A stretch of DNA of 42,904 nt, taken from contig JAPPFC010000049.1 in assembly GCA_028824015.1 (NCBI GenBank), positions 1-42,904 on the forward strand. Direction: 5' to 3'. Positions 30,721 to 41,661 of the stretch are shown in pieces. Numbering within the stretch: the stretch's first letter is position 1; each line of letters starts with the position of its first letter. Under the pieces are notes generated by a model. The model did no database searches and had not been told where the DNA came from. It saw only the letters and a list, made by a program, of their open reading frames with translations. A program made the translations under genes and the position numbers. Source of the stretch: a bacterium (GTDB lineage Bacteria; Actinomycetota; Acidimicrobiia; Spongiisociales; ZC4RG35).

Positions 30721-32667
30721 TTACGTGCTTTCCTCCGTCTTCGCGCGGCGGGTAGACACCGCAAGCCAGCCCTTGTGGAGTCGCTCGGTCTCCATCAACA
30801 CACGGTCCCATGTGGTGAAGTTGAGGCGGGGAGTTGGAAGTGTTTGAAGGTTCTTTCGCGACAGGTCGGCCCGAGATGTGTAGCGTTGAGCGATCATAAC
30901 ACCCACCACCCTGAGAGGGTCAGATGATATTGACTGACTCTGCTCAGCGGCAAGCGCGTACTCGTGGAATCGTGAGACTTCGTCGCTGTTCACGGATCGC
31001 TTCCGGCCGTCCGGATGGGTGCCTCGCTTGATTTCGACCACCAAAAGCTCATCGTGCGTGTACGGGGCACCGGGGCCGAGTGCAAACAAGAAGTCCAACC
31101 GGCCATCGGTTTCGTCCGGTTCGGGTTCTATCCCCAGGTCGGAGAGGCGGACTTCGTCATCCAGGAGGTACCACCGCGGATCCAGGAGCCACGGATGTTT
31201 CTTGACATGATCGTGGATGGTCGGGACCTCGGTAGCTCCGCCGGCAACGAATCTACGCAGTTCAGCGATTGTTTTAAGGCGGGCCTCGATAATCGTTTGG
31301 TTACGGCGCGCGTCAATGAGGCCAAAGCGCTGAACGACCTCCCAGATTTCCGATTGGAAGTCCGGCGTACTGCTGTCGATACGTTCGAGGAGTTCTCTAA
31401 CAATTGTGTCCTCGTGGGCATCAACGATGGAGCTGACGAGCTCTCGTGCTTCGTCGACATCGATGGCGGGGATTTTCGAGACAGCGCTGGTCACTCTCAT
31501 CATGCGTTTCCGCTCATCCGGCGTCAGTCGTTCCATCAAGTCAGTGAAGTTGCCGAGGTCCAGCCCTTTGGCTACCCGCTGTCGCCTGAGCCTGCTCCAT
31601 TCCTTGAGCGCGCGGCGTATCAGACTCTGCCCCCAATCGACGAATTCGTCCAGTCGCTCGTCCTCAAGCTGCAGCTGATCTCGGTTAGCCTGGATCAGGT
31701 CGGTGTCGATGTCGCGGCCCTCGTCTAACCAGTCTGCCTGTACTTCACCCATCAAGTACTCCTGGCCAAGCTGTCCCTCCGCACCAGCCGTGCGATGGAA
31801 AAAGAACGGCCTTTGCACCATCTTTCCGCGGGCGAGCACGGACACGCCCTGGAGTTGTTTCTCGTGCAGCGGCTTCTCAGTGAATCCGATCCACCAGCGG
31901 ACCCCGCCAGCCCGTGACTCCATTTCGGCCCAGCCATCTGCAGTCTCTTCTACGCCGGTGTCGAACAGTTGGCCGTCGCGTGGGAAGCGGACGTCTAGGT
32001 TGTAATCAAAGCGGCTGATCTCTTCTCCGTTGACAACGGTTTTCATCTTGTCCGCGTCGAGCGCGAAACGGCGCGCCAGCGAGCGTCGAAACTGATCCTC
32101 GTTCATCGCTCTCCGCGGCCGGAGCATCGATAGGGTTATACGCGTACCCTGGGTAAGAAGGTTTCCTTCAGGGTCGCACAGCAACCTGTCACCTTGTGCT
32201 GGTTCGACTTCGTAGTCCTCAGTCGGATCGAGATTGCGAATGTGGTCATAGTCGAGGCGGAAGCTTGTGACCTGCCCTTTGGTGTCGACTGTCAGACATT
32301 CCAGTATCTTTGCCGTGCCGAAGGCTGCGAGCTTGCCGATGCCCTTCCGCCCGTGCAACGGCCTTCCGCCCTCCGTACGATCCTGGTGGAGCTCAACTCG
32401 CCGCTTTCGTCCCACCAACAGATAGCGCGTTTCCGCATCCTCGTACGACATCCCGACGCCATCATCGGTCACTACGATTCGATCATCATCCCCCCAAGGC
32501 TGGCCAAGCGGGATCTCGATCCACACGTTGCGGGCGTCAGCATCCCAAGCGTTCGAGATGAGTTCAGCCATTGTTGCGGTTGCGCCTGGGTACAACTGAG
32601 CGCCGAGTTGCTCAATCAACGATCCCAGAAACCGCAACCTGAGTGGCCTGGATTCACTGCCCGTCAT
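30721..32667 (-). CDS. GHKL ATPase fused to a PD-(D/E)XK nuclease domain, copy A
   Basis: 648 residues from the ATG at 32667 (MTGSESRPLRLRFLGS); a GTG 7 codons upstream is possible, but the ATG aligns with the start of copy B. The N-terminal GHKL (Hsp90/MutL/MORC-type) ATPase has the N box AELISNAWDAD (Glu35, Asn39), DDGVGM near 68 and the lid GRKGIGKLAAFG near 106. GEVQADWLDE near 308 lies in the transducer region and is shared with copy B. The C-terminal domain has HPWLLDPRW, then RLDFLFAL (Asp525) and LLVVEIKRG (Glu545, Lys547), a PD-(D/E)XK active site of Shedu-like look. Expected role: ATP-gated DNA cleavage in restriction or phage defence. Neighbours on the strand are the GIY-YIG gene and methyltransferase A upstream. 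GC is lower than in the metabolic genes. Confidence 0.85.
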   Translation of the reverse strand: MTGSESRPLRLRFLGSLIEQLGAQLYPGATATMAELISNAWDADARNVWIEIPLGQPWGDDDRIVVTDDGVGMSYEDAETRYLLVGRKRRVELHQDRTEGGRPLHGRKGIGKLAAFGTAKILECLTVDTKGQVTSFRLDYDHIRNLDPTEDYEVEPAQGDRLLCDPEGNLLTQGTRITLSMLRPRRAMNEDQFRRSLARRFALDADKMKTVVNGEEISRFDYNLDVRFPRDGQLFDTGVEETADGWAEMESRAGGVRWWIGFTEKPLHEKQLQGVSVLARGKMVQRPFFFHRTAGAEGQLGQEYLMGEVQADWLDEGRDIDTDLIQANRDQLQLEDERLDEFVDWGQSLIRRALKEWSRLRRQRVAKGLDLGNFTDLMERLTPDERKRMMRVTSAVSKIPAIDVDEARELVSSIVDAHEDTIVRELLERIDSSTPDFQSEIWEVVQRFGLIDARRNQTIIEARLKTIAELRRFVAGGATEVPTIHDHVKKHPWLLDPRWYLLDDEVRLSDLGIEPEPDETDGRLDFLFALGPGAPYTHDELLVVEIKRGTHPDGRKRSVNSDEVSRFHEYALAAEQSQSISSDPLRVVGVMIAQRYTSRADLSRKNLQTLPTPRLNFTTWDRVLMETERLHKGWLAVSTRRAKTEEST

Positions 32668-32694
32668 TAGAGTATTAGGCACCTGCACATCATC

Positions 32695-32716
32695 GACATT
32701 CCAACATTCTAATGTC
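32695..32716. promoter_or_regulatory. Inverted repeat GACATT-N10-AATGTC upstream of ATPase-nuclease A
   Basis: The 22-bp interrupted palindrome lies 28-49 bases before the ATG at 32667. On the minus strand a possible -10, TAGAAT, sits inside it. Two TGATCA sites follow at 32732-32737 and 32755-32760. This suggests that ATPase-nuclease A has its own regulated promoter in the 130-base gap after the GIY-YIG gene. Confidence 0.4.
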
Positions 32717-32817
32717 AGGGGATGTTGTTGATGATCAGCGACAGTGACCAGACCTGATCACTGAAAGTTCTCACCTCGGAGGTTAATGCCCCTCGGGAGG
32801 GTTCACTTCCCCGGATC

Positions 32818-33477
32818 CTACCGCTCTTGTCCGGTGAGAGACGTGTAGCGTTTCCGGGCGAGCCACTCCAGGCGTTGGGCTTGCACGATGAGAGTTCGTC
32901 GCAGTCCCGGGCTGGGTGATCGCTCGCTGATGATGCGCGCTAAGTTGGCGATGGTGCTGGCCCTGCGGGCGATGCGTATATCCGGGTGGCTGCGAAGCCT
33001 GCGGATCTCTTTGGGAATGATTGATATCCGGTACGATTCCGGCAGTTGGATGGTGCGAGCGGGTGGGACGTCTTTTTCGTTGAGGAGCGCACCGAACACC
33101 GATTCTCGTAGGGCTCTTTGGTACACGCTGTATTCAAGGTTGATGAGCTGCGAGAGTACCTCCTGGCGTGACGCGTTTTCCAGTTCCCATAGTGGCCACA
33201 TCTCGATTTCGGCAACTTCGAAGGGGTCCAGCACGCTCATCGCGGCGGCATCTGTTCGCTGGTTGGTCAAATGCCGACGTATCCGCGTGCGGAGCTTTTC
33301 GTAGGTTCGCCCGACATATATGGGTTCGCAGTCATAGTCGTAAAAGAGGTAGACGCCGTGTTTAGCGTCCCCCACCCGACGTCCCTGGCCATCTAAGGTG
33401 TCCAGTGCTTGGGTGATCCGAGCGCGGATGGCTCTGACTTCGTGCGGGGGATCAGACCTAGATCGCCTGGCGGACAC
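32818..33477 (-). CDS. GIY-YIG nuclease family protein
   Basis: 219 residues. The GIY-YIG core is clear: HGVYLFYDYDCEPIYVGRT at residues 40-58 supplies both tripeptides (GVY, YVG), followed by basic KLRTRIRRHL with the catalytic Arg, and Glu115 in INLEYSVYQRAL as probable metal ligand. The C-terminal 100 residues are helical and basic (LRRTLIVQAQRLEWLARKRY) and may bind DNA. Its start overlaps the end of methyltransferase A by 20 bases, so they are translated together. Type II restriction enzymes with GIY-YIG domains exist (Eco29kI), so this may be the cleavage partner of methyltransferase A. It is not UvrC-like in length or domains. Confidence 0.82.
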   Translation of the reverse strand: MSARRSRSDPPHEVRAIRARITQALDTLDGQGRRVGDAKHGVYLFYDYDCEPIYVGRTYEKLRTRIRRHLTNQRTDAAAMSVLDPFEVAEIEMWPLWELENASRQEVLSQLINLEYSVYQRALRESVFGALLNEKDVPPARTIQLPESYRISIIPKEIRRLRSHPDIRIARRASTIANLARIISERSPSPGLRRTLIVQAQRLEWLARKRYTSLTGQER

Positions 33478-34585
33478 TGCTAGCAGCCCCTGTGGACGAT
33501 CGCAACGCTGGCATTAGGTAGTGGCGGGCAACCCAAGAAACCACCGGAACGCAGACCGCGTCGCCCAATCCGTTGAGAGCCTGGTTAACGGTGACGGTGT
33601 CCAAGACAACATCGTCGGCACCCTGGAGCCGGGCATATTCCCTGGGCGTAAGCCACCTTACCCGCAATTCGCCGCGGCCCGCTTCCACCAACGCCTGTTT
33701 GCTTGATCCTCCGCTGGCGGTGCGCAGACAACCGGCGATCTTGTCCCGTCGCACTTCCCACACCGTCCCTCCCCGCCTCGTGCGCCGATAGGCCGTCCGC
33801 AACTGGATCCTGTCGTCTTTGATTAGTTTGTTGACCCGCCTCGACTGAATTGGCGAGAGGGACCCTTCGAAATCTCTCATCCTCTCCTCTGGCCACCATC
33901 GCCGGTCCGTGTCAGGTAGTTGTTCAACCACGGTTCGAAGCTCCGGTACCGCTTTGGCCGGAGATGGAAGCGGAAAGAAGTGCATCCGGGACTGGGGGTG
34001 TTCTTCACGGTACTTCAAGACCCATCGAGGCCTAAACGGCGTCGGCCGCCCGCGGTCTTCAATCTTCGGAGGATCCGCCAGCCCTATAAGGAACAACCGC
34101 GGGCGGCTCTGGGGAACGAACCACTTGGCATCTCCCACGATCAGATCACAAGAGTACCCGAGACGGTTCAACTCCTCGACAGCGGCCTCTAGATCCCGTC
34201 CCCCATGGGACGTGGCGAAGCCCATCACATTCTCAAGGAGCACACCCTGCGGTTTGCGCTCTCCCATCTCTTCCAACACCCTCGTGAACTGCCAGAACAA
34301 ACCAGACTCCGTACCCGCCAGCCCGGCCCGACCCCCCGCCACCGACAAGTCGGTACATGGAAACGAAGCCGTAGCCAACTCCACTGTAGGAATATCGTCA
34401 CCCCACAGATCCCGGATGTCCCCCAAATGGAAGTCGTCATCCCCGAAGTTGGCCGCGTAAATAGCAAACTTGATCGCACTTATATCATTCGCGAACACCA
34501 CTCCGAAACCAGACTGTTCCAGCGCTGCTCTCACAAGACCCATTCCCGCAAAGAACTCAGCAGCACGAAGAGGCGAATCCCACAT
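33458..34585 (-). CDS. C5-cytosine DNA methyltransferase A
   Basis: 375 residues with all main m5C methyltransferase motifs in order: I AAEFFAGMGLVR near residue 9, IV ASFPCTDLS with catalytic Cys77, VI LLENV near 116, VIII QSRPRLFLIG near 179, a variable target-recognition region, IX VRWLTPREYARLQG near 309 and X NQALNGLGDAVCVPVV near 334. It transfers methyl from SAM to C5 of cytosine in a target site that cannot be predicted from sequence. It is first in the minus-strand module, with the GIY-YIG gene overlapping its end. The ATG at 34585 is only about 11 bases from a TATAGT -10, so the message is nearly leaderless. No motif is damaged. Confidence 0.93.
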   Translation of the reverse strand: MWDSPLRAAEFFAGMGLVRAALEQSGFGVVFANDISAIKFAIYAANFGDDDFHLGDIRDLWGDDIPTVELATASFPCTDLSVAGGRAGLAGTESGLFWQFTRVLEEMGERKPQGVLLENVMGFATSHGGRDLEAAVEELNRLGYSCDLIVGDAKWFVPQSRPRLFLIGLADPPKIEDRGRPTPFRPRWVLKYREEHPQSRMHFFPLPSPAKAVPELRTVVEQLPDTDRRWWPEERMRDFEGSLSPIQSRRVNKLIKDDRIQLRTAYRRTRRGGTVWEVRRDKIAGCLRTASGGSSKQALVEAGRGELRVRWLTPREYARLQGADDVVLDTVTVNQALNGLGDAVCVPVVSWVARHYLMPALRSSTGAASSVRQAI

Positions 34586-34619
34586 TTGTCATTTCCACTA
34601 TACAGTAAAGCTGTGACAA
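34586..34619 (-). promoter_or_regulatory. Promoter of methyltransferase A framed by TTGTCA/TGACAA inverted repeat
   Basis: TTGTCA (34586-34591) and TGACAA (34614-34619) form an inverted repeat around the minus-strand -10 TATAGT (34602-34597). The transcription start would fall at about 34590, next to the ATG at 34585. A protein bound to the two arms would cover the promoter. Restriction-modification loci are often autoregulated in this way, here perhaps by the broken XRE-like gene or by the methyltransferase itself. Confidence 0.5.
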
Positions 34620-34655
34620 CCAATTAGCACACCCCGAGGACGGAAAGGGCCGGTT

Positions 34656-34956
34656 ATGATGGCGGACATCAAAATCGCTCAATTATTGACTGGGGCCCGA
34701 AAGCGGGACGCGGATGGCGGGTTTGGCCCACACCGTCTTCCGCCAGGCCGAGCGTTCCCCTTGGCACCTTCCCAGTCACCGCGCCGGACTCTGCAGCCTC
34801 GCCCACATCCTCGAAATCTGTCTCTCTCTGGGCATAGCGCCAGTCGACTCCTGCGAAGTTTCTGGCGAGAGAAACAGGGAGGCTGGATCGGCGCCAGCCA
34901 CCACTTGGTTCGTGACGACCGCCAACTTGGCCCGCGCCTGTAGGCTTCTCGAATGA
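34656..34956 (+). pseudogene. Frameshifted XRE-type helix-turn-helix regulator gene
   Basis: One frame from the ATG at 34656 reads MMADIKIAQLLTGARKR, the usual first helix of an XRE domain. After a shift of frame, from the ATG at 34714, it continues MAGLAHTVFRQA, RSPWHLPSHRAG and SLAHILEICLSLGI, which matches the rest of an XRE domain (compare SLATLERILEALGL), with about two residues missing after the RAG. The second frame ends at 34956, where TGA overlaps the ATG of ATPase-nuclease B in ATGA. So the reading frame still couples to the downstream gene although the protein is broken. It could have regulated both divergent modules. Homology is judged by eye and is moderate. Confidence 0.4.
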
Positions 34957-37007
34957 CCGGCAACACGGGCTCGGATCGCTACGTCATGCGGATATCACGC
35001 ATGACGGTAGATAAGCTCGGGGTCCGCCTGTATGACCGCGTCAGCGCAGTTGTCGCCGAGCTCATCTCTAACGCGTACGATGCCGACGCTGAGAATGTGG
35101 TGGTTCGAGTCCCGCTCGCAACTCTTCTCGCACGAAAGGACCGGGCAACGGGGGAGGTGGAAGACTACGGCCACACCATCGAGGTGCAGGACGACGGGCA
35201 TGGCATGACCCGAGAAGAAGCTAACAAGCACTTTCTCCGGGTTGGGAAGGACCGACGGGCCGATGCGAGTCAGGGAAGTCGTTCCCGCCTAAAACGGCGC
35301 CCGGTCATGGGACGGAAGGGCATCGGCAAACTTGCCCCCTTCGGCATATGCAAAAGCATCGAGATCCTGTCCGCCGGAGGCGAAAAGACGGACGACGGCT
35401 ACCCCGTTTCCCACTTCGTCATGGACTTCGACAAGATCCTAACCGACGAAGATACACCGGTTCCAATGGATGTAGGTGATCATGACCAAACATACCGACC
35501 AGTGTCGGGGACTACGGTCCGGCTCATTGATTTCCTGCCGAAGAGAGTCCCGAATCAAGAAACATTCCACCGGCAAATGGCACGACGATTCGGGTTGAGC
35601 CAGAGCGATTTCAAGGTCATTGTCCAAGACACGCGAAACCCCGAAGCGAACCCCCCTCGGGAGATTGGCACGTTTGAGATTCCATTGATGGAGGGCACGC
35701 GCGTCGATGTCTCCGAACAACCAGTGGAGCTCCCGGAAGGACAAGGTGTCCTACCTGTAGGGGGATGGATGGGACTGGCCAAAGGTGCCTACAAGAATGA
35801 AGAGATGGCTGGCGTTCGCATCTACGCCCGCGGAAAGATCGTGGCGACAACTCGGGCTTTCGGACAGTCGGCGGGATTCACTGGGGAGTTCACGGTGCGC
35901 TCCTACCTCGTGGGTGAAGTCCATGCCGATTGGCTCGACGAGGATGATGGTGACGACCTCGTTACGACCGACCGGCAAGACATTCTGTGGGAGTCCGACT
36001 ACGGGCGAGCGTTTCGGGAGTGGGGTGCGGAGTGGATCAGGAGGATTGCCGCGGCTTCCCGTGCGCCTCGACGCAAGAGGGTTGAGCAGCTCTTCTTGGA
36101 AGCGTCTGGACTGGAAGCTAAGGCCAGACACCGCTTTGCCGACAATGAAATCGTTTCCACGGCCTTGGAGTTGGGAAGACAGATCGGCCGCTTCGCCGCC
36201 GAAGACGAACTCGGTGACCAAGAGTATGTGGATGGCCTAGTTCAAGTCGTCCTATCCGTAGCCCCACATAAGGCCCTGATGGACGCCTTCGGAACCTTCA
36301 ACCAGGAGCTGTTCGGCGAGAATGCCGGGATAGATTCCCTTTTGGATCTGTTCTCAAAAGCAAGGATCGCAGAGATGGCTTCGTATGCCCAGATCGCATA
36401 TGAACGGGTGAGGGCGATCCGGCAGCTTGAGAAGGTAATAGACGAGGGAGGGGATGAGGATGTACTCCAGCGGATCGTCACCGAGGCTCCGTGGCTGATT
36501 GACGCGACTTGGACTCCCATTACGACGAATCAAGGCTTGAAGCTGTTCCAAAAGCAATTCGCTGCCTACTACAAGCAACGATACGACGAGGAGTTGACCT
36601 TCTCAATTAGCCATCCGAAAAAGAAGCCAGACTTCACGCTGGTGAGCCTCAGGCACAGAGTTCATATTGTTGAGATCAAGGCCCCGGGGCGCAAATTCGG
36701 GGCTGCAGACTGGGACCGACTCCACAACTACATCGAGGCGTTCCAGGATTTCTTTGAAAAGCACCACCAATTGACGGCAAACTTCTCCGGCGGGTGGGTT
36801 GTTGACTTAGTTTGCAATGGCGTAGGTATAGCTGATCGAGACAAGAGGGCCGCGTACGAATATTGGTCCGGGCAGGGACGCATTGAACGAATCTCCTGGA
36901 CCGACTTCCTAGCGCGCGCTGTACATGCGAATGAGACATTCCTTGACGCGGAGGATCGAGTCCGGAAGGAGGCGGGAGACCATAAACCAGACACGATCTT
37001 GTCGTGA
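34953..37007 (+). CDS. GHKL ATPase fused to a PD-(D/E)XK nuclease domain, copy B
   Basis: 684 residues from the ATG at 34953. The GHKL ATPase half has the N box AELISNAYDAD (Glu36, Asn40), QDDGHGM near 79 and the lid GRKGIGKLAPFG near 120. GEVHADWLDE near 321 is shared with copy A. The C-terminal domain has EAPWLIDATW near 511 and the complete nuclease motif KKPDFTLVS (Asp560) with VHIVEIKAPG (Glu574, Lys576). The two copies share the architecture and key motifs but are otherwise far diverged, so they are not a recent duplication. The gene heads the plus-strand module with methyltransferase B and Vsr. Such GHKL ATPases beside cytosine methylases and Vsr nucleases were described in the comparative work on MutL/MORC-like ATPases in restriction systems; action here is inferred. 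Confidence 0.87.
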   Translation: MTGNTGSDRYVMRISRMTVDKLGVRLYDRVSAVVAELISNAYDADAENVVVRVPLATLLARKDRATGEVEDYGHTIEVQDDGHGMTREEANKHFLRVGKDRRADASQGSRSRLKRRPVMGRKGIGKLAPFGICKSIEILSAGGEKTDDGYPVSHFVMDFDKILTDEDTPVPMDVGDHDQTYRPVSGTTVRLIDFLPKRVPNQETFHRQMARRFGLSQSDFKVIVQDTRNPEANPPREIGTFEIPLMEGTRVDVSEQPVELPEGQGVLPVGGWMGLAKGAYKNEEMAGVRIYARGKIVATTRAFGQSAGFTGEFTVRSYLVGEVHADWLDEDDGDDLVTTDRQDILWESDYGRAFREWGAEWIRRIAAASRAPRRKRVEQLFLEASGLEAKARHRFADNEIVSTALELGRQIGRFAAEDELGDQEYVDGLVQVVLSVAPHKALMDAFGTFNQELFGENAGIDSLLDLFSKARIAEMASYAQIAYERVRAIRQLEKVIDEGGDEDVLQRIVTEAPWLIDATWTPITTNQGLKLFQKQFAAYYKQRYDEELTFSISHPKKKPDFTLVSLRHRVHIVEIKAPGRKFGAADWDRLHNYIEAFQDFFEKHHQLTANFSGGWVVDLVCNGVGIADRDKRAAYEYWSGQGRIERISWTDFLARAVHANETFLDAEDRVRKEAGDHKPDTILS

Positions 37008-37127
37008 GAACCCGTCAGCCTCTAGTCGAATTGCGGTACCGAAGACAGCAGGTTCTCCGGCTGCGGGAGTTCGCTTCGTGTGATCCAAGCTCGTTGTCAC
37101 AGCGTGTGTGAAGCAAGGAGACGAGAT

Positions 37128-37220
37128 ATGTCGGATCGAGTCTTTCCACCCGATACCGGGGGGCACGGGGTCTTCGTATTGCGCTCGGTGATGTGTGATA
37201 CGCTAAAGGGCTTTGGCTAG
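37128..37220 (+). CDS. Short ORF with strong ribosome binding site, 30 codons
   Basis: In the 233-base gap between ATPase-nuclease B and methyltransferase B, the ATG at 37128 is preceded by AAGGAG at 7 bases. It encodes MSDRVFPPDTGGHGVFVL, then RSVMCDTLKGFG and a stop at 37220, 20 bases before the methyltransferase start. I recognise no family. It may be a leader peptide affecting translation of the methyltransferase, or the site may have occurred by chance. A possible promoter (TTGCGC with TACGCT) lies inside it and would serve the methyltransferase. Confidence 0.3.
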   Translation: MSDRVFPPDTGGHGVFVLRSVMCDTLKGFG

Positions 37221-37240
37221 CATCCGCGAAGGAAGACCCA

Positions 37241-38755
37241 GTGGCCAGTCTGGATTCGATAAGTCTCTTCTCCAATTGTGGAGCAGGCGATATCGGTTTC
37301 GCGCGGGCGGGTTTCCGGTTCAAGGTTCTGGCTGAGATTGACGAGCGTCGCCTCGAAGTAGCGCTTCTCAACCACGGTGACGCCTCGGGTGTCGCTGGTG
37401 ATCTGAGACAGACTTGGCGCAAGGTGGTAGCCACCTACCGGGAACAATGTGGATCGGTGCGGCCGACTCTGCTATCGGCTTGCCCTCCGTGCCAGGGAAT
37501 GAGTTCGGCGCGCAGTAGCCGAGGTCTTGAGAGCGATGCCGCCGCCGGGAGCCGCGACACTCGGAACCTGCTCGTGGAAGTGGTCGCCGAGGTCGCACGC
37601 GAGGTCCGGCCGAGGGTCGTGGTGGTTGAGAACGTGCCGGCGTTTCTATCTCGTTTGGTGATTGACCCAGCGTCGCGCCAAGCGGTTTCCGCAGCCGCCT
37701 TACTCATTCGTCTACTTCAAACTGACTATCGCGTGTTTCCGTTCCTGACAGATCTAGCCGACTACGGTATTCCACAGCGCCGAGTCCGCTCCTTCCTCAC
37801 GTTCATCAGGCGCGATGAGCCCGCTATCAAAGTCTTGGAACGTGCTGATGTGGTCCCCTACCCGCTTCCTCCCGCCCAGGATGCAGCCTCAAACAGGAAA
37901 ACGCTCCGAGAGGCTCTAGCCGACCTAGGTGCGAAGCCGCTGGATGCCATGACTCCCGCCACAGCGCGAGATGAAACCAACCCAATGCATGCTGTACCGG
38001 TTTGGGGCAATAGTCGTCAATATCGGATGGTTGCCGCAATTCCGTCCGGTTCTGGTGGCCGAGCATGGGAGAGTTCGCAGTGCGAGAAGTGTGGGCAAGT
38101 CGACGTAGGACCTGAAGACGCTGTTTGCCCTATGTGCGCGGCACCCCTTCTTCGGCCGGTGGTCAAAGAGGAAGACGGCTCATACCGGCTGGTTAAGGGT
38201 TTCCGGACCTCCAGCTACACTCGCATGTCGCCTGATACCCCCGCGGCAACTATCACAACTGCCAGTGGTCATGTTGGTTCCGATCTAACCATCCATCCCT
38301 TCGAAAACCGACTGCTTAGCCCGTTCGAATGCGCGTACCTTCAGACATTCCCAGACGACTTCGACTGGGGGGAAGCTCTAGAACAATGGGGAACAACCTT
38401 CGTACGCGCCATCATTGGAGAAGCAGTACCACCCAAGTTCACAGAACTCCATGGACGAACTCTCATCAACCTATTGGAGGGCAAGATCTCGGAACTCGCC
38501 CACGAAACGGACGCTCGTGTCCTGAAGGCAGAGAAGCGGCTCAATCGACTTGCGGGAAACTACTCCACTTCTGTCGTAGGAGCGATCCAATGTTCACAGT
38601 CCACCCCTCCCCTTGACGACATGGACAGGGTGCTGATGGAGACTGAGAGGCTTTCTCAAGGGCTGCCTTGCAGTGTCCAAGCACCACGCGGGAATACAGG
38701 GCAACGACTACCGGGACCGGGTGTGACGCCGCAAACTAGGACCATCTTGGGTTGA
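37241..38755 (+). CDS. C5-cytosine DNA methyltransferase B, with zinc-ribbon insertion and chimeric C-terminus
   Basis: 504 residues from a GTG at 37241. Motifs are I SLFSNCGAGDIGFARAGF, IV SACPPCQGMSS with catalytic Cys84, VI VVVENVPAF near 127, VIII YGIPQRRVRSFLTF near 175, IX LLSPFECAYLQTFPDDF and X IIGEAVPPKFTELHG. A four-Cys zinc ribbon (CEKCG at 281 and CPMC at 296) lies in the target-recognition region. The native enzyme appears to end near HGRTLINLLEG or shortly after. From about 38600 the frame runs through a remnant of another gene (STPPLDDMDRVLMETERL), so the last 50 or so residues are probably acquired. It lies between ATPase-nuclease B and vsr, whose ATG follows the stop by 9 bases. 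Confidence 0.9.
   Translation: MASLDSISLFSNCGAGDIGFARAGFRFKVLAEIDERRLEVALLNHGDASGVAGDLRQTWRKVVATYREQCGSVRPTLLSACPPCQGMSSARSSRGLESDAAAGSRDTRNLLVEVVAEVAREVRPRVVVVENVPAFLSRLVIDPASRQAVSAAALLIRLLQTDYRVFPFLTDLADYGIPQRRVRSFLTFIRRDEPAIKVLERADVVPYPLPPAQDAASNRKTLREALADLGAKPLDAMTPATARDETNPMHAVPVWGNSRQYRMVAAIPSGSGGRAWESSQCEKCGQVDVGPEDAVCPMCAAPLLRPVVKEEDGSYRLVKGFRTSSYTRMSPDTPAATITTASGHVGSDLTIHPFENRLLSPFECAYLQTFPDDFDWGEALEQWGTTFVRAIIGEAVPPKFTELHGRTLINLLEGKISELAHETDARVLKAEKRLNRLAGNYSTSVVGAIQCSQSTPPLDDMDRVLMETERLSQGLPCSVQAPRGNTGQRLPGPGVTPQTRTILG
38600..38726 (+). pseudogene. Remnant of the 3' end of an ATPase-nuclease A homologue, inside the methyltransferase B frame
   Basis: The frame reads TPPLDDMDRVLMETERLSQG, which matches TPRLNFTTWDRVLMETERL and HKG at the end of ATPase-nuclease A (about 30755-30830 on the minus strand). 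A one-base shift in the CTTTCTCAAGG stretch then continues the match in another frame: GCLAVSKHHAGIQGNDYRD compared with GWLAVSTRR. Eight residues, DRVLMETE, are identical but use different codons, so the relation is old and not a recent local copy. The piece shows that a third ATPase-nuclease gene once ended here. Confidence 0.7.
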
Positions 38756-38764
38756 ACAACAAGG

Positions 38765-39190
38765 ATGAAAGCAAGCAGTCTCGATACATTGACGGCCAGC
38801 GAACGGAGCCAGCGCATGGCCAAAGTTCGGTCCAAGAATACGAAACCGGAGATGCGTGTGCGACGGCTCGTGCATGGGATGGGGTATCGTTACCGCCTCC
38901 ACGCGACGGATCTTCCAGGCCGCCCAGACCTGGTTTTTCGGCCTCGGCGCAAAGTGATCTTTGTTCATGGCTGTTTTTGGCATCAGCACGCCGGATGCGC
39001 ACGGAGTCGAATGCCGAAGTCCCCGGAGCGTCGAGACTATTGGAGGGCCAAGCTAAACGGCAACGCACATCGGGATTACAGGAATGAAACGGCTCTACAG
39101 AAGATGGGCTGGTGCTTTCTTGTGATCTGGGAGTGCCAAACGAGAGACCTAGGCGACATGGCAAAAAGGATTAGAACGTTTTTAGGGTAG
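38765..39190 (+). CDS. vsr: Very short patch repair endonuclease (Vsr)
   Basis: 141 residues from the ATG at 38765. The family core is intact: SQRMAKVRSKNTKPEMRVR near residue 15, catalytic Asp55 in GRPDLVF, VIFVHGCFWHQHAGC with His68 and His73 and zinc ligands Cys70, His75 and Cys78, and the last Cys in VIWEC near 122. Vsr nicks DNA 5' of T in T:G mismatches made by deamination of 5-methylcytosine, and so protects hosts of cytosine methylases from C-to-T mutation. It follows methyltransferase B by 9 bases, in one operon. In GHKL-containing restriction loci, Vsr-fold proteins may also be the cleaving nuclease. Confidence 0.93.
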   Translation: MKASSLDTLTASERSQRMAKVRSKNTKPEMRVRRLVHGMGYRYRLHATDLPGRPDLVFRPRRKVIFVHGCFWHQHAGCARSRMPKSPERRDYWRAKLNGNAHRDYRNETALQKMGWCFLVIWECQTRDLGDMAKRIRTFLG

Positions 39191-40766: not shown

Positions 40767-40800
40767 TGGGCGATCTCGACCACACGTTTGCATTAAGGCC
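40767..40800. repeat. Left arm of a 34-bp inverted repeat
   Basis: This arm matches the reverse complement of 41628-41661 at 31 of 34 bases, including a block GACCACACGTTTGCA. The arms lie about 830 bases apart and bracket the micropeptide unit and the GTTCG array. Read outward from each arm, both encode DLDHTFAL- or ELDHTFAL-like peptides, so they may be fragments of a repeated gene or ends of a small mobile unit. Confidence 0.7.
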
Positions 40801-41114
40801 TGGCCGACGCCAGATTTCGGGGTGGGCCGCCACCAGCCTTTCGGAGCGTCGCAGGCTGATAGCCGGGGTGTTTCCAACTCACGCGTTCGTTGCATCCTCG
40901 GGGTCTTAAGGCGGTGACCGCTTACATGCTGCTAGCCCTTTTTTCGAAGGGCGACCGAGGCGCTGTTACGCCGGCTGCGAACCATTGCTCACGATGAGTT
41001 CGGGATGCGACCATGTCACCATCCAGGTAGAGGAAGCCGTGGAAAGGCTGCGAAATACCATCACATCGGCCACCTCTTGGCCCGCTCCCGGCCTCTCGGA
41101 TAGAAACGCAAGCG

Positions 41115-41157
41115 TCTCAAAACACAAGGGCTCCGCCGCCGAGAAAGCAGCGGAGCC
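41115..41157 (-). terminator. Intrinsic terminator of the micropeptide unit
   Basis: On the minus strand an 11-bp stem (one G-U pair) is formed between 41157-41147 and 41139-41129 with a loop of seven bases, followed by CTTGTGTTTTG. It begins 19 bases after the stop codon of the 17-codon ORF, exactly where its terminator would be expected. Confidence 0.7.
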
Positions 41158-41176
41158 TCGTTGCGTTCAGAGGGAG

Positions 41177-41230
41177 TTAGTGCCCGTGGTGCTCGTGGGT
41201 GTCGCACTCGTGCTGATCGTGGACATTCAT
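41177..41230 (-). CDS. Histidine-rich 17-residue micropeptide
   Basis: The ORF encodes MNVHDQHECDTHEHHGH, with six His, one Cys and five acidic residues of 17. It has an excellent Shine-Dalgarno, AGAAGGAG, six bases before its ATG at 41230 and a strong intrinsic terminator just after its stop, so it looks like a complete minimal transcription unit. The composition suggests binding of Zn, Cu or Ni. It could be a metal-buffering peptide or a leader whose translation senses metal or histidine, although no biosynthetic gene follows the terminator. A TAGAGG -10 near 41325 is only a weak promoter guess. No homologue is known to me. Confidence 0.5.
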   Translation of the reverse strand: MNVHDQHECDTHEHHGH

Positions 41231-41370
41231 CCGGTACTCCTTCTGGGGGGGCTCTCTGATTTGCGGCCCGGGGGCCATCGACACTCCGATTCGCTCGACG
41301 GTGGCGTCGCTCCGAACCGATCTCCCTCTACCTTATCAGTCTCTAATGCAAACCCACCCTTATCCGAAGC

Positions 41371-41492
41371 GTTCGCAAACCGTTCGCTGCAACCGTTCGC
41401 TGCAACCGTTCGCAGCGTTCGTGAAGCGTTCGTTTGGGGTGTGACCTGGGGAAACACCGCCTCGGAAAGGGCGAGCGTTCGCTGACCGTTCG
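41371..41492. repeat. Array of eight direct GTTCG repeats
   Basis: GTTCG, mostly within CCGTTCGC or GCGTTCGT, occurs at 41371, 41382, 41395, 41408, 41417, 41428, 41477 and 41488, all on the same strand. Spacings are 11, 13, 13, 9, 11, 49 and 11 bases, so many copies are about one helical turn apart. It lies upstream of the micropeptide gene on the minus strand. A 13-base unit (AACCGTTCGCTGC) is repeated exactly. Possible multi-site regulator binding; unproven. Confidence 0.6.
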
Positions 41493-41627
41493 CCGGGAAC
41501 TTTCCTGTGAGGGGTCCGGGTGAGAGTGCAGCGAGCCTTTCGGTTGAAGATGTCCGAATCCGCCTCCCGATCCCGGTCGGCGGCTTCGGGCGGTTGGTGG
41601 TTGCCCACGGGTTTTTGGGTGTGGGCA

Positions 41628-41661
41628 GGCTTTAGTGCAAACGTGTGGTCGAGTTCGCCCA
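41628..41661. repeat. Right arm of a 34-bp inverted repeat
   Basis: Reverse-complement partner of 40767-40800, with three mismatches. Similarity outside the 34 bases is weak on the outer side (CCAAG and CCGG blocks recur), so the original repeat unit may have been longer and has decayed. Confidence 0.7.

Follow-up and report, generated by a model that had tools for sequence, protein, structure and literature searches.

A one-unit His-rich open reading frame between inverted repeats is probably a relic of a putative zinc-buffer gene in a member of the Acidimicrobiia

Bacterial metallothioneins (BmtA/SmtA) are small cytosolic proteins rich in metal ligands. Capture of gene fragments by repeat-bounded non-autonomous elements is known from Pack-MULEs and from MITE cargo. 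CDF zinc transporters of the ZitB/CzcD/ZnT type have His-rich N-terminal regions or loops, and polyhistidine triad (Pht) proteins figure, together with AdcAII, in one account of His-rich zinc-uptake partners (PMC3842936). The window analysed here, i.e. the whole stretch of 42,904 nucleotides of contig JAPPFC010000049.1 (assembly GCA_028824015.1), has points in common with each of these. The original prediction, made from the letters of the window, had placed on its minus strand a minimal gene for a His-rich micropeptide of 17 residues, consisting of an SD, an ORF and a terminator in a region free of genes. This anatomy is exact, and all parts are present at the positions listed below. The region is free of intact genes, but it contains the frameshifted remnant of a CDF C-terminus (40895-41112, plus strand), and inverted repeats flank the piece.

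41237 to 41244, minus strand: SD AGAAGGAG, with a 6-nt spacer before the ATG
41177 to 41230, minus strand: 17-codon ORF MNVHDQHECDTHEHHGH, ATG at 41230 and TAA ending at 41177, a one-unit contraction of a 72-aa HECDxHEHH repeat protein
41129 to 41157, minus strand: terminator stem-loop of 12 pairs (9 GC), with U-rich tail CTTGTGTTTT to about 41119
41324 to 41353, minus strand: promoter-like remnant GTTTGCATTAGAGACTGATAAGGTAGAGG, TAGAGG where relatives have TACAAT/TACTAT
40895 to 41112, plus strand: remnant of a CDF (ZT_dimer-type) cation exporter gene, C-terminal ~70 codons, frameshifted
40767 to 40892, plus strand: left inverted-repeat arm with its tip at 40767, not as long as the arms in other copies
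about 41378 to 41661, minus strand: right inverted-repeat arm with its tip at 41661 and, at the inner end, GTTCGC-type tandem repeats

The arms of the terminator stem-loop, GGCTCCGCTGC and GGCGGAGCC, lie 3' of the ORF on the minus strand, where the region 41105-41172 folds as RNA with -37.6 kcal/mol (z -5.5 versus shuffles). The window has no match in Rfam and no tRNA or tmRNA was found in it; a search of the plasmid collection also gave no match.

The window copy shares ancestry with a second locus in its own genome (G000), on contig C47, as seen from 85–88% DNA identity through ORF, SD and terminator. In the search of that genome the identity was 85% over 41000-41224 and 78% upstream, and homology to C47 covers a 465-bp fragment from 40895 to about 41359. 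The parent gene on this contig is the following.

G000:C47:7458-7673 (L028): gene for a 72-aa protein with four HxHECDxHEHH units; a gene for a CDF zinc-type exporter faces it in convergent orientation

The 72-residue protein, MSVHDPHECDGHEHHGDEPGHVHDSHECDDHEHHAGEHEHDAHECDTHEHHGDEPGHVHDPHECDDHEHHGH, is enclosed by the same SD, start, stop and terminator as the window ORF, and in intact loci the terminator separates the His-rich gene from the CDF gene that converges on it. In the window ORF the beginning of unit 1 continues, in the same frame, into the last part of unit 4, which leaves one intact unit and no tandem array, versus four units at the parent locus. From SD and start through the final unit, stop and terminator, the aligned identity with four congeners is 81–87%; the SD itself reads GGAAGGAG in the five functional loci of the genus that were compared, versus AGAAGGAG in the window. 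Four units are encoded in congeners G003, G004 and G005 and two in G001, while G002 encodes a four-unit protein and, in addition, a CDF transporter that itself carries two units. Two-unit forms also occur in some Chloroflexota. The SD-ORF-terminator unit sought in relatives is found in congeners, but not with a single repeat: the motif is present in 17 of the 138 genomes of the order, and the single-unit ORF only in the window.

The 72-aa parent family is under strong purifying selection. Among 13 full-length members most of the 72 positions are invariant, including nearly all HECD and HEHH cores, and codon comparison gave medians of 0.09 for pN and 0.76 for pS (pN/pS about 0.13). No match was obtained with Pfam, NCBIfam or PDB chains (E up to 1; phmmer for PDB). 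The motif HECDTHEHH was not found in the literature, nor was a description of a 72-aa HECDxHEHH family with the terms tried. Named relatives, with two to ten units, belong to Acidimicrobiia and Chloroflexota (Dehalococcoidia/SAR202; loci L028-L078). The family is patchy, since no member outside G000 was found among 396 genomes of a broad phylum sample. The bacteria concerned are at least partly sponge-associated. The source bins bin22, bin76 and bin127 derive from the sponge Aplysina aerophoba (PMC5649159), and bin76 is the window's congener G002, via contig MPNA01000028. For other MAGs a sponge origin is presumed from their names.

Neighbouring genes were identified by Pfam assignments. Of the 40 named family loci, 34 have a gene for a CDF exporter or a ZnuA/ZnuB importer in their flanks. 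The CDF gene, found at 27 of them, is mostly convergent and about 100–200 bp downstream; ZnuA and/or ZnuB are encoded at 7 further loci, directly upstream in several. In the window's genus, five of the six loci have a FUR-family gene at a distance of about 2–5 kb. In the window no intact CDF or Znu gene lies alongside, only the frameshifted CDF remnant. The free His-rich protein also appears linked to the exporter by natural fusion, in CDF genes with two or three HECDxHEHH units at the N-terminus.

G002:C25:2307-3533 (L033): CDF gene with N-terminal units
G093:C97 (L017 457-1881): CDF gene with N-terminal units
L072 2064-4205: CDF gene with N-terminal units

At L078 5494-8121, from Dehalococcoidia, two repeat units were seen by eye in frame with a RecQ-type helicase-like sequence, either a fusion or a chance overlap. 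The parent protein begins directly with the repeats, and disorder is expected for such a His-rich, low-complexity repeat. A role as cytosolic zinc buffer or donor would be the most economical, because no hydrophobic signal precedes the repeats. Most likely, then, the parent is a cytosolic, disordered protein whose units would bind Zn2+ and either pass it on to the CDF exporter or keep it in store for that transporter; in other lineages it most likely serves as a buffer for zinc imported by ZnuAB. The metal binding proposed for the 17-residue peptide gains from this ancestry (His/Cys/Asp-rich composition, purifying selection, zinc transporter neighbours), with the proviso that the zinc role of the parent is itself read only from neighbours and composition.

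The resemblance to CDF transporters with His-rich regions is twofold: in G002 and G093 the CDF N-terminus carries such units, and the gene for the free His-rich protein adjoins that for the CDF transporter. The parent differs as a free 72-aa protein of four units, and the window copy as a one-unit remnant. As with Pht and other His-rich zinc-uptake partners, a His-rich protein is encoded beside zinc ABC transporter genes; however, Pht proteins are surface proteins, whereas the parent has neither a signal sequence nor a phmmer match to PDB chains. With BmtA/SmtA it shares small size, richness in metal ligands and a presumed cytosolic location, but it is dominated by His, with one Cys per unit, and matches no Pfam family.

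The inverted-repeat arms lie directly outside the CDF/His fragment, and their tips (39 nt) are 90% complementary. They belong to a dispersed element (further loci L122-L135) with arms of about 290 bp and tip TGGGCGATCTCGACCACACGTTTGCACTAAAG, nearly confined to the window's genus among 99 relatives. Other genomes of the genus contain many arms, often as inverted pairs with about 1.5–4.4 kb between tips and with unrelated cargo; about nine further inverted pairs were found in congeners. Cargo elsewhere includes DUF4268 proteins (PADLOC PDC-S11 candidates), a HEPN/RES protein and an S-layer-domain protein, so that conserved inverted ends surround variable cargo. The CDF/His fragment fits between the arms as captured cargo would, because the arms abut it here and bound unrelated cargo elsewhere. 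This is reminiscent of Pack-MULEs and MITE cargo, with a host gene piece between inverted repeats and no transposase seen in the window element, but the arms of the window family are, at about 290 bp, a point of difference. No transposase was found by Pfam among ten cargo or near-cargo proteins, and inspection by eye of the window arm tips revealed no obvious target-site duplication. The GTTCGC-type tandem repeats (CGTTCGCTGCAACCGTTCGCTGCAACCGTTCG) extend over 41368-41504, and similar short repeats are present in C21 and C54 of the genome. By eye, 30721-39190 of the window contains two long HATPase-type-like proteins, two DNA cytosine methyltransferase-like ORFs and a Vsr-like endonuclease, which suggests that a restriction/defence island adjoins the element.

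The window ORF is likely a captured, repeat-contracted and probably silent relic of a putative zinc-buffer gene. The homology, the unit number, the frameshifts, the promoter change and the abutting inverted repeats can be read directly from the sequences, and the order of events and the mechanism of capture that we infer would be as follows. The last ~70 CDF codons, the shared terminator and the His-rich gene with its SD would have been captured as cargo between element arms, the promoter being cut at its -35-like region. The four-unit gene would have shrunk to a single unit without loss of frame, an outcome to be expected if unit 1 recombined with unit 4. Frameshifts have broken up the CDF part, where several indels are seen, and the -10 box is gone: TACAAT of relatives (TACTAT in C47) is TAGAGG in the window. 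Because of this loss, the copy probably yields no functional micropeptide. The TGCAAAT..TGGTTTGCA inverted repeat has likewise lost its upstream half. A regulon search with this upstream repeat gave an exact site only at C47 and three sites with 3 mismatches, two of which were inspected and showed no evident metal-homeostasis gene.

A functional one-unit micropeptide, its ORF read from a weak or newly arisen promoter in the arm of the element and its product acting as a small zinc chelator beside the 72-aa paralogue, seems unlikely. SD, frame, ligand residues and terminator are intact, and two-unit versions in other species imply that the unit number is flexible. However, the ancestral -10 box is lost, and a consensus scan of 40850-41600 found no sigma-70-like promoter. 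Constraint was assessed at sites invariant in five functional loci: 5 of 49 were changed in the ORF, 10 of 77 in the region upstream and 30 of ~121 elsewhere in the CDF remnant (raw 43/134, including 13 alignment-end gaps, so that the printed p-values against flanks are inflated). The terminator had 1 change in 42 and the last CDF codons 0 in 30 (combined 1/72). The 11 His, Glu, Cys and Asp residues of the unit are all kept, as are SD and terminator, where other parts of the fragment drifted by 13–25%, and some selection or gene conversion may be acting there. Yet conservation of the ORF does not exceed that of the adjoining terminator and dead CDF end. Its changes relative to the functional loci, the replacements S2N and P6Q plus one silent change, affect no ligand residue. 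The block of CDF end and terminator is closest to the genome's own C47 locus and the CDF remnant is not, which points to a mosaic history and suggests gene conversion around the terminator block. Survival of the ORF is thus no good evidence for function, as the adjoining block changed even less and gene conversion is suggested. With a one-unit ORF in a single one of the 138 genomes of the order, truncated cargo, a decayed neighbour, no -10 box and no extra constraint, the notion of a complete minimal gene lacks support and is probably wrong. A regulatory leader is not supported either, as the minus strand beyond the terminator carries nothing but sequence antisense to the dead CDF end.

It is very improbable that only the hairpin was kept for function, for instance as a transcription block between the element and its neighbours, with the ORF as bystander. 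The strong fold and the minimal change in terminator plus CDF end (p 5e-7 versus the rest, in a test that counts alignment-end gaps) would agree with this, but gene conversion explains a block closest to the C47 copy equally well, and no intact convergent genes remain to be separated. Finally, although 17-codon ORFs are frequent by chance, it is hardly conceivable that this one arose without descent from a gene, next to a sequence that merely resembles an SD and a hairpin unrelated to it: every part is clearly homologous to a conserved locus that encodes a protein, which refutes this reading.

The relic nevertheless leads to two interesting parts, the parent family and the cargo element, for which the suspected micropeptide provided the leads. 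The 72-aa His/Cys repeat protein is highly conserved, uncatalogued in curated families and tied to zinc export or import in two phyla. Micropeptide calling needs caution, since even a perfect unit of SD, ORF and terminator can be a fossil. The inverted-repeat element family carries candidate defence genes and fragments of host genes. Such cargo elements in sponge-associated Acidimicrobiia could capture and remodel pieces of host genes and might, though this is quite unlikely, have made here a one-unit zinc-binding micropeptide gene that is still used.
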